Below are positions 33,959-61,825 of a stretch of DNA of 64,000 bases, in pieces. Position 1 is the stretch's first letter. The number at the start of each line of letters is the position of its first letter. Under the pieces are notes generated by a model, which was not told the DNA's origin, searched no databases, and worked only from the letters and a program-made list of their open reading frames with translations. A program made the translations under genes and the position numbers. The DNA is from Taiwanofungus camphoratus. Lineage: Eukaryota > Basidiomycota > Agaricomycetes > Polyporales > Taiwanofungaceae. The stretch is taken from assembly GCA_003999685.1 (NCBI GenBank), contig CP021220.1, forward strand, positions 3,844,001 through 3,908,000. The letters run 5' to 3'.

Positions 33959-36900
33959 ATGGTACTCCTTCCTGACCTCCAACGTTGTCAAATACACATA
34001 TTAATCCTTTTGATCTAGAGCTCCGATTCTGAGGAGGCTCTCTGGAGTCATTTGTCTAACTCGCAGGAGCATGCGTGGCAGGCGGCAATCGAGCAAGATG
34101 GTATGTCGGAATGCTGACACCGTTCTCAGGTTGTATTGATATTGCAACGTTATTAGTTCCTGAAACCATTGCCACAGATGTGCCCTCTCAAGCTGACTTC
34201 TTTTCAGCGCCATCATATCGCAAGAAAGCAAATACACCAAAGAAGGTCGTCAAGAAATCCATCGTAGCCGGATCTCGAAGTGGGCGTGACCACTCTACTG
34301 TTTCTGTCCTGATACTGAGCTGCTAGACTACACAGCATCTACAAGTCATCCCGATAAATGGTCTGGTAAGTCCTCGCGGGTCGGGCACTCTATTGGCCAG
34401 CAACTTGCTTCAATGTCCAGCGTCTCTGTCCAATCAAATGTGACTGTAGTAAGTGGACAATACGGCATACGTCAGAGGCGCTAATCAAAGATACATTTTA
34501 CATGTTAGGATAGTGACGGATACGCCACTGCCTTCGGTAGTGATTTTGAGGTCCTCGAAGGTGCGTTGACGCCCGCGAATTGATGACAGGAGCTGACTAC
34601 CTTGTAGTGAACAGCAGTATGTCCTTGCTCTTCTTGAAAACATTGTTGAAATAAAGTCTGGCACTTTGTCTCAGTGAATGGGACAGACAACAAGTCATTT
34701 TCTGCTGCCACACGACGTTCAACGCTCTCACGAAGTTCTTCGGAGAACACCTCAACGGCATCTCTGTCCTCGACTTCGTCGTCCGCTGAAAGTCCCCATT
34801 TCGGACAGAAGCGTACCCTTGAATACACTGAATCATTTGTGTGGACATCATCGCCTTCCTCACCATCACACAAGGTCCGGAAAGTTACAAAGCAGGTGCA
34901 CAATTCATCAGCGAACCCCTCTACTGTGGATGCACAGCCTCCGCAGACACTCCGGAAGCCGAAATTTCGTCCTGCTGTCAATTTCGCAGATGCATGTGGT
35001 TCCATAAACCCAATGGTGTCAGCATCGAAACATACCGCGCCTCCGTCAACTACTTCGTTACAGCCTAGTCCCTCAATTGGAGATCCATTACCTTCATCCT
35101 TGGCCTCATCAGCCACTGCTTATAGTCACACCACAACACAGGATTCTGCTACAAAGCATGAACCATCCGGATCGCGGCAATTTCTAAAGAATTCGCTTTT
35201 CTCTGCGGCGCGTGGTCTAGCTACCTCTGTTCTTGGTACGTCAAGTCAAGACATTTCCACTCCCATCATTCCCCACAAGGACAGTGAAACGTTTGAATCG
35301 GTGCAAACAGCTGCAGAACAAGTTTCGATCATTGCGCATTCCAGTGACGTTCAACGCTTGATGGACTTGAAGCGCATTGCATGGGGTGTACAGTATGAGT
35401 TGGCCCGTGGTGTCTGTCACGGACGATGGACATGGGAAAACGTCACGTCGGCGAAGCTTGACCTACTGGTGGGCTCGAACAAAGCTGCAGCCCATCTGGT
35501 GGCCCAAGTCATGCTATCATCCAATAACGCAAATAAGGTGGCAATAACGGAGCTACCACTATGGTAAGTGAGACGAGACATGGACTGTTTCATGTAGCCA
35601 GAATTGTTTCTGAGAGATGTTCTCACAGGACAGAACTTGATCGCGAGGAGGAGGCGATTATTGAAAATCGTTCCCGGGGACTCGGACTACAGGGCGAATG
35701 GTTCGAAGATTCGAACTGGTATGGTGGAAAAATAACACAAATAGCACGACTCACGAAGAACGAGAAGGGATCTGCTGCACCTTTCAGGGTCTTGCTCGAA
35801 AGAATGGAAAAGCGCAAGTCGAATCGATTTGCCCGTTTCCTCGGATCACGCCGGCTGCTGCAGGTCAGCATATCGAAAGATCTTATGTATGCGGAGCAAA
35901 CTCAACTTGTACGAGACTTCATCTGCCGGAAGTTCATCCTCTGTGGGAGAGTGTACGTTCCTTTCTGTGCCAAGGACAAGAAGGTATTCATGATGGAGAT
36001 AAATGAGGATTATGAGCGCGCAGCAAATCTGAACGGTGATCAATATCGGATGTCGTTACAGAGTTTTGTGAATTGGCACAACCCCTTGATGCTTAATGGT
36101 AATCAGGTAAATATGCTTCGACTTCTCAGAAGATAATTATTTTTCCTGACGTGAATTCAGCCCACGACGAAGTGGTCCACTCGATTTCAGCTTGGGCTTT
36201 CGAATTCCGTACCAGTGCTCGAGTTTCAAGGTGTAGGATTGGATATGTTCTATATCGAGGATGAGGGTACGTTCTAGTCGTGGTATATGCACTTTCGTGT
36301 GGTGGTGACGAACGTCATCAATAGTTGCTCCGTATGCACCATCTCTGAAGAAAGCACCAACCGAGAACATCTTCACGGATGGTTGTGGCTTCATGAATGG
36401 TGCGGCGTTGACGCTGATAGGCAGGCGACTCGGTTATTCAGAACGACCGACTGCCGTTCAAGGTCGGATTGGAGGAGCCAAAGGTCTCTGGGCTCTACAC
36501 CCAGAGGATCGAGATCCTAACACGACTCCGAAAGTATGGACTCGAAGTTCTCAACGAAAGATTAAATACAACGATGCAACACTTGGACTTGCTCAACGGA
36601 TATTTGACCTCGTCGCTCCTCCTCGAATAACAAAACCGTCAAGATTGTCGAAGCACACGATTATGAATCTGTCCCACAATGGTGTTCCCAGTCATATTTT
36701 TATTTCGTTGATGCGTGAATGTTTGCAGAAAGAAATCGAGGCCCTGACTCGATGGAATACTCAACATGATATGCTCCTGCTCTGGAATGCCATTAATCAA
36801 GGATTCCACGTCTCGACAAAAAAGATATACCGGCGGGTGACAGCTTCACTTCGGGCGCTTGGTGTCGGTGGTAGAGAGATTGATCGTGATGATGACGAGG

Positions 36901-48099: not shown

Positions 48100-49252
48100 T
48101 CAGTAGCTGGCTACGTCCATAATATACTTTCCCCCAATGATCTCCTGTAGACGATATCGCGGATTGCCAGTGTGCACACTGATATATCCTGTTGCGAAAT
48201 TCTCCCAAGCATCCCTTGCCTCGCCTTCGCCCAGGATGGTGCGGATGCGTCCGACGGCGGCCACCGTCTCGTCAGTGACATCGAGGAGCGTCTCCGGGAC
48301 GGTCTTTTCAGTCACAAGCGCGCGGTCATGAATATAATTGACCTTTTCTCCCGCAAGTTCTTCCTTGTAAAATGACAAGATGTCGCTGTGAACAGACGTC
48401 AATAGGGCAGCGTGACAAAAGTACACTACATAGGAGACTCACTTGACATAACCAACGTACAACATCACGTCCCTGATGGGTAATATAACGGTCAGTTTAG
48501 AAACCAAGCTCAGCAATATCGACTCACGGTATGGCCTGCATGTATAGCTGGACATCCGGAAACTTCTCCTTATCCCAAATAAAGCAAGCATATGCCTCAG
48601 CAGTTGCACTCATACTCCGGCGATATTCGATAAACGGAAGGGCCTCGGAATGCAGTTTCATGTCTCCCGACTCGTTCTCCAAGATCGACACATTCACAAA
48701 GCGTAGAGCGGACGCAAAGATCGAGTTGGCGGCGAACGGCGCATAGTGCTCCCACATCCCCGACAAGACGCGCATGAACTTGCCGAGCATGTCCTCACCG
48801 CGCTGCGCCGCACCCGTGCACACACGCTGGTGGAACTCACTCGACGCGAGAGCGTTGAGGATCGCGGGGTCGTCGAACGCGATAATGAGTGTCGTGAACA
48901 GCGTAATTTGCACCTTCGTGTCCATGCTTGCGATGTGGCTGTACGCCGTGGTGGTGAGGATGAGTGCGGTCACGACGTGCGGGCGAATATCCTCCCCGTA
49001 GCCCCACGAGTGCACGATCTCCTTGACCCGGGCTTCCAGCTCAAGGTCGCGCTTGTAGTCTGAAAAAGTGAGGCTGATCTTGTCAAGAAAATCCCGGATT
49101 GTTTGCTGGGAGACAGAAGCGATGGTCTCCTGATGGATCGAAACGGCGCGGTGAGAATTTATTTGGATTGGAGATGCAACATGACTCGCCTTGTCCATAG
49201 GTGCAGCAATATCAGCGGCGGACAAAACGCTAGGTCTGACGGTGAGTAACAT
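48100..49252 (-). CDS. Sesquiterpene synthase, trichodiene synthase (Tri5)-like
   Basis: A 346-residue class I terpene cyclase that should ionise farnesyl diphosphate and cyclise it. Exons: 48528-49252, 48443-48472, 48100-48385; phases agree. The Asp-rich site appears as TLIIAFDDPAI after the ITLFT helix, so it reads DDxxI and not the textbook DDxxD. The second metal site is the complete NSE triad NDILSFYKE, with its Asn codon split over the junction of exons 2 and 3. MQAIPDVMLYVGYVNDI and HTGNPRYRL are also typical of Tri5-like enzymes of mushrooms. The product is unknown. A 30-nt middle exon carries the helix before the NSE triad. A TATA box stands 130 nt upstream. A decayed copy lies at 51.5-52.4 kb. 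Confidence 0.93.
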
Positions 49253-49381
49253 GGTAGAACTGTGCAAACGGTAGCACGTACTGAGAGAGCTCGCTATGGA
49301 TAGACATCTGTGCGGTTTGTGCTTTCTCACAAGAGAAGAGTGAGAGAGCTGCTGATGAGGAGAGCCAAAGGAGAGTTTGGG

Positions 49382-49389
49382 CTTATATA
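49382..49389 (-). promoter_or_regulatory. TATA box of the terpene synthase gene
   Basis: TATATAAG on the minus strand, about 130 nt before the ATG at 49252. The position fits a core promoter with a 5' leader of about 100 nt. Motif and spacing only. Confidence 0.5.
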
Positions 49390-50519
49390 GCAGGGATGGC
49401 ACCTGAGGAACAATGAAGCTGTAGACTCTAGAGAGCTTGCATTCGGTTGTATCTAGTCGTATCGCATGACTTCCTGACAGACACAATGGAATTCACCCTT
49501 ATGGAAGTTACCTTTGCGAGAAAGAAGTGGGAAGTTATTTTCCTTCGACCATGTATGTAGATAAGAATCTGAGAGAATTAGGCGGTAAAATGTCCATTAA
49601 GGTTCCCCCTGAGATGCTATCCATAGAGCAAAAGAGACTGTTTCTAATTACCGAGAGCCGGGGAAACGAGTTGGGAGTCATTCATCGCAGTGACATCCTG
49701 GACATGTCCAAGTATTTGCAATGTCAAGTGGAGACCAAGACTGGTCCTCGAGATATTTGGGTCGCTGAGGCACTGGTAGGTGTGGTCCCATTGCAACAGA
49801 ATCCTTAGATCTTTGCCAGAACGAGATTGACGGATGATGGATGCAATGATAGTGAGCATCTACAGATCGGTCCAAAGCCGATTGTAGGATTCTGGTAGCT
49901 TTTGGGAGACTTCCTGTGAAGTGCCGGAGACCCTGTTTCAATTGGGGCGGCATGATACTCATCAATTCGTGCCGGCTGACTTGGCGGAGAAAACGGAATT
50001 ATCTTGGCCCGTTTAGCACCCTCCTTGCCTATACTGAACTTGATAGGCTCCTCTTGAGTATATCATGTTGTAAGACAGGTTGAAGTAGTATCATAGTTCG
50101 GCTGAGAATGAGACCGGTATCAAGCGCCTGCGCATGCATGCACTTCAGCAGAGTGTCAAGGGAGACTTGATTGTTCACTGGCGCGCAATATCACAGTTGG
50201 ATATGGCAGATGCTGTGAGGTGAAATAGGCGTCTTGTTGATAGTGATTGGAAATATTTCAGGCTGTCGAATTCCCATACCTGTCACGGTTAGACCAATAC
50301 TTGTAAGAATACGAGCACGGTGATATATACAGAGTCTTCGATCTCACATGCGAGTGGCAAGCATTGCCTAGAGACCCTAGGGCTGCACAGATTGAGGATT
50401 TGGAAAGGCGCACTGCCAGTTCTACGCGCTCCGGAAGGACTTCGGATGGCACATGCATAAGCGTCCGGACTTGTTTCATCGAGCGCTGCTATTTCGTAGT
50501 ACATTTCATTCTATTCCTA
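49390..50519. other. Intergenic, nothing recognised
   Basis: The plus frame at 49527-49808 (93 codons, first codon GTG) has no match and no second exon that I can see. Otherwise unassigned. Confidence 0.35.
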
Positions 50520-50645
50520 CATCAGGAAAAATGCAGGTGACTATGTAGCTGGATTTGCTACATCCCCAATCTATAGCACTATATGATGCTACAGATTTGA
50601 TCGTAATTGCCGTAGCATCAGGAGCTACCCTGATTTTTCCTGATG
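50520..50645 (+). repeat. 126-bp MITE-like inverted-terminal repeat, copy 1
   Basis: The unit has matching ends: CATCAGGAAAAAT at the left and its reverse complement ATTTTTCCTGATG at the right, a 13-bp terminal inverted repeat. The interior is rich in nested GCTAC/GTAGC palindromes and has no coding capacity. TA stands on both sides, which would fit a Tc1/mariner-type target. A second copy in the opposite orientation is at 52920-53045 and differs at one base. Confidence 0.85.
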
Positions 50646-51504
50646 TATGTACTCCGTGGGGATGTCATGTGTTTGAGATCTTTGCCTTGTGCGAGACAAG
50701 GTCGCTCAAGGTGTGTGATGACTTTATCCGGTGATGGGCGCTGTGAGACATCACAGATGACCTCGTAAAGGGCACCTGTAGGAAGAACGCAAGCCGTGAA
50801 CGGACTTCAGCATTCCGACGCGAGTTCAAGATCAATGATTATTTTGCTTAGGTAATAAATATTACTTTAGATGGCGATGGTTGTGACTTGGCCAACGTTG
50901 GGTACCTTGGAATGGCATGTACAATGCAAAAGATAGGGCGGCTTGGGTCGAGGATCCTGGTGCGTAGTCTTCACAGTTCCATCATGGGTAGACAGACTTC
51001 ACGTTGTCCATGCCAGCGTCTGCCCCACTTTGGCGCCCATATTCATGTGGACACAACTTCACTTCGGAAGCATCTCAGAAGGGTTCTGTTAGCGATCCAA
51101 TTGTTCCATCCCTCTTCCATTACGAGTGACATGGTAGAACTGGATGGCAGGTCCTCCGGCCGAACGGTGTGCGCTCGCGTTAAACATGACTTCCACAACA
51201 GTCGGAGTGATTCCTGCACTTGCAATCTGAGTCTGAGACTGCAAATTCGGCCGTACCCAGTTTGACGTTTGGCTCTCTAAGATATCTCATTTGTTGAAAG
51301 TTATAGCTGGAGGCATGGTCACAGATCACTTCGCTGTAGTCGCAGTCCAAGCACTTCGCACTCCCGTCAATGGCTGATTTCAAAAACCATTGGAGATCAA
51401 AAGTAGGGTAAATCACAGACAATGATCGTGCGATATAACTGTTATTAACCTCACAATAAAGAGACTCGAAAACAAAATACTGGCTGCTGGGTGGCTATCA
51501 GGCC
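50646..51504. other. Intergenic between repeat copy 1 and the terpene synthase relic
   Basis: No family match in either strand. It lies inside the interval bounded by the two inverted 126-bp repeats. Confidence 0.35.
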
Positions 51505-52440
51505 TCAAAATACATACTATACATGCGGATGCGCTCGACTGCGGCGACCGCTTCGTCGACAACCTCTCAGATCTCCAGCGGCGTGGTCCTGGTGGCGACA
51601 ACAGTACGGTCATGGATGGAGTTCCCCGTTTTGCCAGCAAGTTCTTCGTAAAATGACAAAATGTCGCTCAGAACAAGCATAATGACAAGGTGGAAAGAAC
51701 CGGAGAACAAATCTATTTGACATACAACATCACGTAATTCAACAGTCAGTAAAGCAACCAAATCCAGCAATGTCGACTCACGGTATAGCCTGTATGTATA
51801 GCTGGACACCCGGGAACGTCCCAGACGAAGCAAGCCGATGCTTTAGTAGTCGCACATGTACTCTGGCGATATCCGACAAACGGAAGGATTTCGAGATGCA
51901 GTTTCATGTCGCCCGACTCGTTTTCGAGAATCGACACATTCACAGTGCAGATGCAAAGATCGAGTTGGGGGCGCGTACAGTGATATCACACACAGGACGT
52001 GCATGAGCTTGCTGAGCATGTCCTCATACCGCTGCGCGGCGTCCATGCACACGGTGTTGGAACTCGGGAGACGCGCTCGCGTCGATGATTGCGGTGTCAT
52101 TGAATGGGATGATGCGTCTTGAACAACATAATCTGCACCTTCCGTGTCCATGCCCGCGATGTGGCTGTGATGGTGAGGATGAGTGTGGTCGCAACGTGTG
52201 GGTAAATGGTTTCTTCATAGCTCACGAGTGTCCTATTTGTTTGGCATGGAGCTTCTAGCTTAGGTCATGTTTGTAGTCTGAGAAACCGAGATTGACTTTG
52301 TCCTACCACTTGCTGGGAGACAGCCTCCTAGTTAATTGAATTGCATGAGATCAATCAATTTTTGACACGGGCTAATCCATGACTCTGTTGTCCAAGGATG
52401 CAGCTACTTTGGAAGAAGGCAACGCGCTGTAAGTGACGGC
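51505..52440 (-). pseudogene. Decayed second sesquiterpene synthase gene
   Basis: Minus-strand fragments align in order with the intact gene at 48.1-49.3 kb: the AAQRYEDMLSKLMHVL block, NVSILENESGDMKLHLEILP with FVGYRQS, then SDILSFYEELAGKTGN with HDRTVV, and EVVDEAVAAVERIR. Lesions seen: a stop after TTPLEI; loss of the segment between MLSKLM and NVSILE apart from scraps; loss of part of the exon before the NSE region; a missing Lys codon in SFYEE; and frame changes around 52030-52200. The tail with HTGNPRYRL is gone. Similarity continues into the 5' flank to about 52545 (ATCTGTGTGGTATGCC), so a genomic segment was duplicated. No active enzyme can come from it. Confidence 0.88.
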
Positions 52441-52919
52441 GAGAGAAAATCACATATCAAAGGATTGCAGTGGTAATAGCACATACTATGAGTGTTGGTT
52501 GTTATTTGATATCTGTGTGGTATGCCTCGCCGTGCAGAAGTAGTGAAGAGCATTGGGAGCTAAATGGCCAAGATGCATATCTGCGTGACCTTATATATGC
52601 CGATATTAGCTCACGACTTACGCGAGAGTGCTGACAATGCGGTGTTACAACAGAGATAATGAAAGCTTCGTGGAACGGAAGTGACGGAAATGCCATGTTT
52701 TTTGGGCCCTGCATGCAGTGAAGAATCGCGATAGAGTCAGAAATTTGTTCCTGGTGACTATCCGCAGCGCTCCTGGATAATATGGGCAAGCGGACAGTCT
52801 TGCAGACCAGGTGGAACGATGTACGGAACATGAGCTAGAACCGGTTCCTGAATTGTTGAAACGCCCTAAGTGTCTCCATTTCTGCTTCGTGATTTTCGAG
52901 AGCTGATAGGACAACAATG

Positions 52920-53045
52920 CATCAGGAAAAATCAGGGTAGCTCCTGATGCTACGGCAACTACGATCAAATCTGTAGCATCATATAGTGCTATAGATTGGG
53001 GATGTAGCAAATCCAGCTACATAGTCACCTGCATTTTTCCTGATG
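52920..53045 (-). repeat. 126-bp MITE-like inverted-terminal repeat, copy 2
   Basis: Reverse complement of copy 1 (50520-50645) with a single base difference (GTAGTTG against GTAATTG), so one of the pair is very young or the two are kept alike. Flanks are TG on the left and AA on the right, with no evident target duplication. The two copies face each other across 2.27 kb that contains the terpene synthase relic. Confidence 0.85.
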
Positions 53046-56017: not shown

Positions 56018-57404
56018 ATGGGCTTCCTTAGCCATTTCTTCTCTTTCGCTCAGGTAAGCGTAATAATCATGGCCAGCAGGTATTGCTCATGTCTGGCCAT
56101 GTTGCTAACACGACCGCATAGGATGGCGAACATGATGCTACACCCAACCTGACGGCCACTTATCCTCCTCGTAATTATCTCTCGCGGCAGTCAAGTGCCA
56201 CCCCCAAGATGCCCATCGAGATTGTGATGAACATTCTTGAAACTGCCTACCACGATAATGACCTCCAATGTAATATCGAACTTTTCCTGAACTGTGCCCT
56301 AGTCTGCAAGGACTGGTCGTTTCTTGCGCAAAAACTTCTCTTCCGCCATGTCACTCTCCGCACGCAGACCGCGTACATCTCCTTCCAACAATCGGTTGAT
56401 CGTTCTACCCCGCGTGGTCGTATGCTGGGCGATGCTGTTCAGCTCATGCGCGTGACCCTAGATCATAATCAGCCATACCGTCTTTGCCAACGGTCTTTCG
56501 CCCGCGCCGTCATGCTATGTCCGAATTTGTTCGAGCTGTCTATAGCCTTGTATGGCCAGGGCGCCCCTGGACCAGGCATCGTCGGCTCCCCGGATGAGAG
56601 CCGCATGAAGCGTCCAGCTCCGTCGTTCGACAAGCGTACCCTTGCGCTTCTGCGCTCTGGTCCGAATATTACTGCGCTCCAGTTCAGTAATTGGTCGGAT
56701 AACAGTTCGTCCCTCTTCCAGCTACTCGACGTCTGGCCCTCGCTCAGGTTCCTGGACATCAGTGGTACACCACCCCAGCTTCCTCCCGCATCCGCTGAAG
56801 TTTTCACTTGTACCTTTGAAGGTCTCCGGATGAACTTCCAGATCGCGCCCTCGGTTGACTTCATGAAGTGGCTCCTGCAAAAATCGACGACTAGCCTGCG
56901 CACTCTCGAGGTCGTGCGCGAGCCAGCACCGGAGATGCTTGAGTATGTCGTCTCCGAACACGGTGCAGCGTTGCAGTCGCTTGCGCTCCCCGCATGCAGC
57001 TCCCGTGATGGCGTAGCAATACTATCCAGGTGTGATGCACTGCGCGAGCTGAGGATCGAGAGCGCCTGGGTACCGCCGGCAGTCTACAAGGCTCTGCCGG
57101 AGACTATGGAGCACCTCGCACTTGGTGTGGACATGGATACGTCACTGCAGCCTGTAGTGCAAGCCATCAAGCGTAGCGAGGTTCTCAAGACTGTTACAAT
57201 GCATCTCTGGCTGGGCGGCGAGCATCATCCGCTCTTGAACCGTGTCAAGATTGCTTGTGCAGTCCAGGGTGTTGACCTCAGGTTTACTCGGGATATAAGG
57301 GCATTCCGCACGGTTACGGTATGTCGAGCCCCTTCATACCACTGGCAAAGCAGCTGATGATGTTTTAGCAGGGGATCCATGGTGCTGTCCGACGCACCTA
57401 CTAG
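56018..57404 (+). CDS. F-box-like protein
   Basis: About 421 residues. Exons: 56018-56053, 56122-57318, 57372-57404. After a short leader, residues about 44-90 resemble an F-box (MPIEIVMNILETAYHDN, then CALVCKDWSFLAQKLLFRHV). The rest has weak leucine-rich-like spacing (FLDISGTPPQLP; LRTLEVV; LQSLALPAC; LRELRIESAW; MEHLALGVD). Such basidiomycete proteins are thought to bring substrates to SCF ubiquitin ligases through Skp1. If the last intron (GTATGT...TTTTAGCAG) is not removed, the frame ends at 57357 with a different short tail. The first exon of 12 codons is supported by a GTAAGC donor and preserved phase. Substrate unknown. Confidence 0.82.
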
Positions 57405-60154: not shown

Positions 60155-61825
60155 TCAAACCAGTAATATATTCTCCATAGAACCTCTAGGGGTGGGCGTT
60201 GGTGTAGGCAACTCTCCTGTGATTATTGCAGGTAATGGCATCCGGAGCTCGTTCGCAGGTGCTAGTGGTGCTCTCTGAACTGCTGGATCCGGAGGTCCGC
60301 ATGGGGGGGTCTTCAGTTCCTCTCGGTACTCTGGAGTCCTCGATGACGTCTCGTCGTTCTCCTTCCCGTCCTCGGCAGCACTAGCTGCTGATTGTTGCTG
60401 GGTAGTAACAATGCTCTCTCCTAAGACTTGCACCGGCGCTCGCCTTCCGCCTCGCTTCTCCATCGCGCTCACTATTTCTGACCATTCCTGCTCTCCTGTC
60501 CAGGGAGCAACATGCTTCTCCATGTCATCGTAACCCTTCGCCTTCACGATAGTCTCCCTTAGTTCTTTCATATCTGCCCTGGAGGCAACTACGTGTACTC
60601 CCTTGAACTGGGTGGCGCAGAACTTGGTTGAGGCCCAGTGATTGTTGAGGTATCTGCCCTGTAAAAATGAGTCAATATATTGGCATGGGATTGCTGGATG
60701 TTGCAAAGACAACGACAGCAGGATGCAATGAAATAACCAAGAGAGTGGCACGTACAAGTCGAATATATGATGGGATGAAAGTTGTCTCGAGGTCTGTCAG
60801 AGGCGTGGGAGAAAAACAAGTTGGGTTGGCCTCAGCGGCGGTCGCAATCATTACCGAATGTGCTCCTACAGTCATGATGAGTCAGCCAGCATGGTCCTGG
60901 CGGTGGCCATATCAAGTTACTGAGTCCAGGACGTACCTGTGATCTCTCTTATTCGCAACGCATCCTCATAACCCTGACAGTCACCGTTCTCGATAACGGC
61001 TATGCCGCGCCCCATGCCCTCTACAAATTCGACAATTTCGTGCAGTCGCCCAATAAGTGCTTTCTCGCGCTGACGCATGTTTCGTGTGCGACAATGCACT
61101 GTCAATGCACTGATACCTGTGTTCACGATGCGTTCTACGAGCTTCAGCGTGTCCTCCTGCGAAGGCAACAGTCTAATCTTGGCGGATACCGTATATTCAG
61201 GAGGCACAGCCTGACGGAGTGCAGTGAGGATGGAACACAATAGATCGGGGTTGGTGAGCAACGCTGCGCCCATTCCAGCGTGGGTAGAGAACGGCTTTGG
61301 GCATCCACAGTTGAGGTCGAAGCCTGCGACATCTTGCATGACAGTCTTTGCTGCTTGCACGGCGGTCTCAGGATCGGCAGAGCCAATCTGGTAGATCAGG
61401 TAGGGCTTCTCAATCGGATGGGTAGTAAAGATGGGCTTTGACTTGCCCATATAAGAGACGACACCCGTGGCCGCTGGAAGGATAAAGATTTGAGATTAAG
61501 GAATTGTCATTTGACAAAAAGACTTACCGTCTACGATACGCGTTGTGTGAAGTATAGCTTTGTCGACGGTCTCCGGGCCCCACACCAGAGATGCACCATG
61601 TTTCAAAGCAAAAAGACGAGTTGGTACTGAGTAACGCAAAACATAAAACCAGGGTATAAGAGGTTCAGAGGTTCAGATGCACGTACAAGCTCCTGATCTG
61701 ACCATAGGGGCGAGCATTACTCCATGTTTGTAATCTTCGGGCGTCAGGGGAACAAAATCAAGTCTTGGTCGCTTTGCAAGCCGGGAAGACGGCGGCGGAG
61801 AGAGCGAATGAGAATGTCGAGCCAT
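60155..61825 (-). CDS. DUS2: tRNA-dihydrouridine synthase 2 (Dus2/Smm1)
   Basis: A 462-residue flavoenzyme that reduces uridine 20 of tRNAs to dihydrouridine. Exons: 61687-61825, 61528-61626, 60937-61473, 60756-60865, 60155-60658; all phases agree. It begins with a basic leader, then the TIM barrel: GVMLAPMVRSGALPTRLFAL, GASLVWGPETVD, YLIYQIGSADPE, and AGFDLNCGCPKPFS with the catalytic cysteine in NCGCP. SAKIRLLPSQEDTLKLVERI, ALTVHCRTRNMRQREKA and IENGDCQGYEDALRI follow, then SVMIATAAEANP and LNNHWASTKFC. The C-terminal 120 residues are Pro/Glu-rich and look disordered; I see no dsRNA-binding domain such as in the animal enzyme. The order and the NCGCP form fit the Dus2 branch. Confidence 0.93.

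Follow-up and report, generated by a model that had tools for sequence, protein, structure and literature searches.

Each of the two inverted 126-bp repeats that enclose a decayed terpene-synthase copy in Taiwanofungus camphoratus is very probably a separate non-autonomous PlavakaB element (MITE), mobilized by a Plavaka transposase encoded elsewhere in the genome. The whole explanation that we prefer, in which these are separate PlavakaB MITEs and the second copy is in addition of local origin, is held with less assurance, as a reading that is more probable than not. The DNA analysed was a stretch of 64,000 nucleotides (the window), and the copies in it were compared to the rest of the genome, 33.2 Mb in 15 contigs.

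The two inverted copies in the window

Copy 1 was found at 50520..50645 on the plus strand and copy 2 at 52920..53045 on the minus strand, each 126 bp long. The two copies were reverse complements with 125 of 126 bases identical, the sole mismatch being at window position 50606 in copy 1 and 52959 in copy 2. The coordinates of the copies are exactly those at which the original prediction had placed two inverted repeats with a single difference. Both copies had the exact termini CATCA..TGATG. The arms of the terminal inverted repeat of copy 1 (CATCAGGAAAAAT) lay at 50520..50532 (plus strand) and 50633..50645 (minus strand), and those of copy 2 lay at 52920..52932 (plus strand) and 53033..53045 (minus strand), respectively. 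Copy 1 was flanked by a TA target duplication at 50518..50519 on the left and 50646..50647 on the right. Copy 2 was found without a target duplication; on the plus strand its flanks were TG on the left and AA on the right, that is, TT/CA in the orientation of the element. The TA on both sides of copy 1 and the mismatch between the outer flanks of the 2.5-kb interval (TA versus AA), both of which had been predicted, were therefore confirmed from the sequence. As single-stranded RNA, copy 1 folded better than 200 of 200 shuffled sequences (z −5.4), as is expected from its inverted ends. Window positions 36139-36151 also resemble the end motif, with one base different, probably by chance.

A dispersed family with PlavakaB-like ends

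The repeat unit was found to be a member of a dispersed family, which was invisible from the window alone. The genome search with the 126-bp unit, in which 40 of 79 candidates were scored, gave at least 42 matches, of which at least 40 were full or nearly full length and 2 were short. The 13-bp end had 99 exact matches in the genome compared to 2 for the reversed control, and the 22-mer of the 3' end had 69 matches with three or fewer mismatches compared to 0 for the control; copies with neither an exact 13-bp end nor the 22-mer within three mismatches can have escaped this count. In the stretches fetched, 82 matches to the consensus were obtained. One of these was discarded, its extension having run past the stretch, and 18 of the remaining 81 did not reach both consensus ends (position 3 or lower through 124 or higher) and were excluded, leaving 63 copies. 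These ranged from 95 to 128 bp in length, with 41 of exactly 126 bp. The exact CATCA start was present in 47 and the exact TGATG end in 52 of the 63 copies, and both together in 38, the rest being altered at one or both ends. Two copies without differences between them and with the same flanks (C5:2477111-2477236 and 2503705-2503830) were inverted and 26.6 kb apart. They are probably a duplicated segment carrying a MITE, and the number of independent insertions is thus 62 rather than 63. When 6-kb stretches around 26 partnerless matches to the terminal inverted repeat were inspected, 21 contained a MITE match, often truncated, and five (L066, L071, L073, L075 and L078) did not; by end pairing, none of the 26 stretches yielded a recognisable element of transposase size with these ends.

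The duplication left by the family was 2 bp long. The 2-bp flanks matched in 51 of the 63 copies, compared to a mean of 5.5 and a maximum of 14 when left flanks were re-paired with the right flanks of other copies in 2000 trials, and a 3-bp flank duplication was found in none of the 63. The 51 duplications represented 14 different dinucleotides (TT nine times, TA, CA and TC six times each, AA five times, and others), and G was rare as their first base (2 of 51). There was no duplication in 12 copies, copy 2 among them.

MITEs of the Tc1/mariner type duplicate a TA target. The unit resembles them in its shortness, its inverted ends and the TA at copy 1, but 45 of the 51 duplications in the family were not TA. 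A Tc1/mariner MITE was therefore rejected, and with 14 dinucleotides among the duplications, the TA at copy 1 cannot be taken as a mariner mark. The expectation that solo copies would in general be marked by TA duplications failed for the same reason.

According to the parts of a 2025 study of fungal transposons that bear on the group (PMC12730594), PlavakaB families have CATCA..TGATG ends and duplications of 2 or 3 bp, Plavaka is grouped with CACTA/EnSpm, Transib and relatives, and the CMCT clade (CACTA/EnSpm-Mirage-Chapaev-Transib) includes the PlavakaB DNA transposons. In the genome of T. camphoratus, the Plavaka transposase (PF18759) gave 10 matches at six places, four of which were bounded by inverted CATCAGGAAAAAC ends whose first 12 bases are those of the MITE. 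Three of these elements were 6888 bp long, at C13:413678-420565 (flanks GA/GA), C4:980120-987007 and C4:990833-997720, and the fourth was 8657 bp long, at C11:71963-80619 (flanks TT/TT). The C13 element and one of the C4 elements were traced to their ends; they were 6888 bp each, were 99.77% identical and had a 25-bp terminal repeat starting CATCAGGAAAAAC. The ends of the second C4, the C11 and the C10 places were located by pattern search, which found such an end on one side only at C10, and none was seen by pattern search at the C3 place. The duplications of the C4 elements were GG/GG at the one traced to its ends and AA/AA at the second. These two elements (G000:C4:980120-997720) were in opposite orientation and 3.8 kb apart, were identical over the 3687 bp compared, and each had its own 2-bp duplication.

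The MITE and the C13 element had the outer 12 bases in common and nothing longer, indicating that the MITE is not a simple deletion product of the C13 element and that the latter is a candidate partner only. The likeness to PlavakaB thus consists of the CATCA..TGATG termini, the 2-bp duplications and the presence in the genome of transposase elements with the same 12-bp ends; the difference is that the unit is 126 bp without a transposase and has only its ends in common with a 6888-bp element. On the basis of its ends and duplications, we regard the 126-bp unit as PlavakaB-like, a putative non-autonomous member of that group. In Marasmius oreades, non-autonomous families are likewise classed by terminal motif and duplication length in the relevant part of PMC8290104; short relatives of DNA elements are recognised there in the same way, in a genome that is also rich in Plavaka elements. 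KDZ elements were rejected as partners on the published description alone: PF18758 had 15 matches in the genome, and the Zisupton duplications given in the part of PMC12730594 on that group are 8 bp. The portions considered of PMC12730594, PMC11075540, PMC9674265 and PMC8290104 describe no PlavakaB MITE with these ends, although their supplements may hold one, and a literature search with the end sequence returned nothing related by title. The MITE family was not found described in the literature searched; the transposon group itself is known.

Taken together, such a MITE would have inverted ends flanking a core that is too short to encode a transposase, and would be cut and pasted by a Plavaka transposase, its presumed partner, encoded elsewhere in the genome. 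Insertion would leave a 2-bp duplication of variable sequence, and copy 1 would represent a normal insertion at TA.

Kinship and origin of the second copy

When the 63 copies were compared, copies 1 and 2 were mutual nearest relatives, with a local support of 0.894 and one common state absent from all other family copies. The nearest other full-size copy, C4:2024493, showed 4 and 3 differences from the window copies, respectively, and a third copy of the same subtype was not found among the copies compared. Only 14 of 1953 copy pairs differed by one base or less. These findings point to a common local parent: either one copy would have jumped over a short distance, or one would have been copied onto the other during repair between the inverted repeats. 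The missing duplication at copy 2 would either never have formed, as in an abnormal insertion, or have disappeared later, possibly through slippage that removed a TG next to the terminal GATG. Since it is missing, copy 2 cannot be demonstrated to be a normal insertion; the order of events at the locus is our reconstruction.

Thirteen other pairs were as alike as the window pair, however, and this lowered our estimate of a local origin to a modest preference. One of them was the C5 segmental duplicate, seven involved the 95-bp copy C2:1720702, for which fewer bases were compared, and the members of the five further pairs lay on separate contigs or at a large distance from each other. Unlinked copies can therefore be as close as one difference, which counts against a local origin and is in line with two fully independent PlavakaB insertions from one young source in the same burst. 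This alternative leaves the core reading as it is, with copy 2 having inserted abnormally or having lost its duplication later, and we consider it less probable, though a serious contender. It agrees with the dispersed copies carrying duplications of their own and with most of the 13 other pairs lying across contigs. Moreover, a missing duplication is not confined to copy 2: among the 30 copies with 95% or more identity to the consensus, the duplication was present in 27 and absent from three, one of which was copy 2. The family also clusters in any case, as six pairs within 3 kb were found among the 63 copies compared to 0.35 expected under uniform placement. On the other side, so few pairs are this alike, the nearest full-size copy is 3-4 differences away, and none of the other five close pairs (C7:2019026-2019424, C7:987759-988927, C8:1591258-1592266, C13:339588-342651 and C14:1340072-1341704) is of this kind. 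The window pair was the only one of the six to be mutual nearest relatives, and all 10 copies of the other five had their own duplication. At C8:1591258 the mate was the nearest copy, at 9 differences. Local hopping as a general habit of the family was rejected, as the other five close pairs were not mutual nearest relatives. For the window pair itself, the origin of one copy from the other at this locus is favoured but unproven.

A sub-case of the local-origin explanation takes the two copies to be of greater age, with gene conversion between the inverted repeats maintaining their likeness and the duplication at copy 2 decaying over time. Within the 126 bases there is a single difference, whereas both positions of the 2-bp flanks of copy 2 are mismatched, which is the contrast expected if conversion is limited to the repeat. 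There is no direct trace of gene conversion, however, and a single 2-bp slippage loss of the kind described above may explain the junction equally well, and we regard this sub-case as unlikely, if plausible.

The terpene-synthase relic between the MITEs

The interval between the MITEs (50646..52919, 2274 bp) contained a decayed terpene-synthase copy at 51524..52302 on the minus strand. The sole other match of the interval in the genome was the tandem paralogue of this relic, a neighbouring piece of a terpene-synthase gene at 48240..49492 in the same orientation (minus strand), the matching gene lying 3.2 kb away from the relic. The DNA of the relic (51524-52302) was 69.9% identical to 48240-49084 over 847 columns, with 19 indel runs. 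In six-frame protein comparison, identity reached 64% at 51797-51946; over 51781-52437 it was 28%, and 8 stops were present. The paralogous frame at 48524-49492 (minus strand) matched the solved terpene cyclases SydA (E 1e-8) and CLM1 (E 5e-7), and Pfam TRI5 scored 21.1 bits against the paralogue, below the cut-off of 25.2. The relic pieces alone matched no terpene-synthase family in Pfam or NCBIfam, and a weak Pfam match between a relic piece and PF24528 (E 0.048, below cut-off) was dismissed as noise. The predicted presence of a decayed terpene-synthase copy in the interior was thus upheld by DNA and protein alignment to the paralogue. Further along the window, an open frame of 411 aa at 56122-57357 (plus strand) had a weak F-box-like match (20 bits, cut-off 24.3), and an exon of dihydrouridine synthase was present at 60917-61495 (minus strand; PF01207, E 2.3e-39).

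The relic is probably an old tandem copy of the gene next to it and was probably in place before the MITEs arrived. It is 30% diverged from its paralogue compared to one difference between the MITEs and, with rates that are uncalibrated, this suggests that the relic probably predates the MITE pair. The intact duplication of copy 1 and the orientation of the relic, which is that of its paralogue, indicate no net inversion of the interval; an inversion by recombination between the MITEs was rejected since it would give TA/CA and TA/AA flanks, and not TA/TA at copy 1.

The genome search with both the unit and the interval, which had been proposed as the test, returned many solo units, and for the interval only itself and the 70% partial match to the paralogue (48240-49084). 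One of the two earlier readings, young MITEs beside an old relic, was thereby supported, with corrections of detail: solo units that carry duplications of their own are numerous, and the interval recurs nowhere apart from that partial match. The dinucleotide duplicated varies instead of being TA throughout, the family is PlavakaB-like, and a local relationship between the two copies may apply in place of independent arrival. The other, a 2.5-kb element with 126-bp terminal inverted repeats, found no support, as the interior is single-copy, the outer flanks are unmatched and copy 1 has its own duplication.

Paired insertion sequences act as the ends of composite transposons in bacteria. A mobile 2.5-kb composite at this locus, in which the transposase would act on the outermost ends of the MITE pair and move the relic with them, is very improbable. 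In its favour, a pair of complete inverted MITEs has outer ends available, and no duplication flanks copy 2; against it, the interior is found once in the genome, TA and AA at the outer flanks differ whereas TA stands on both sides of copy 1, and the relic and its paralogue are neighbours with a common orientation. It is just as improbable that inverted PlavakaB MITEs form here the ends of a composite transposon able to carry host gene segments. The findings lend no support to movement of the 2.5 kb as a unit or to the suspected gene-carrying element at the locus, and the MITEs probably did not carry the relic gene along.

A TA-flanked MITE can thus be misread when one copy alone is considered. 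Apart from the tie to Plavaka, the arrangement is largely ordinary and a matter of routine genome annotation. That tie connects a dispersed MITE family to a recently described group of fungal transposons through its ends, the length of its duplications and the candidate transposase elements in the same genome.
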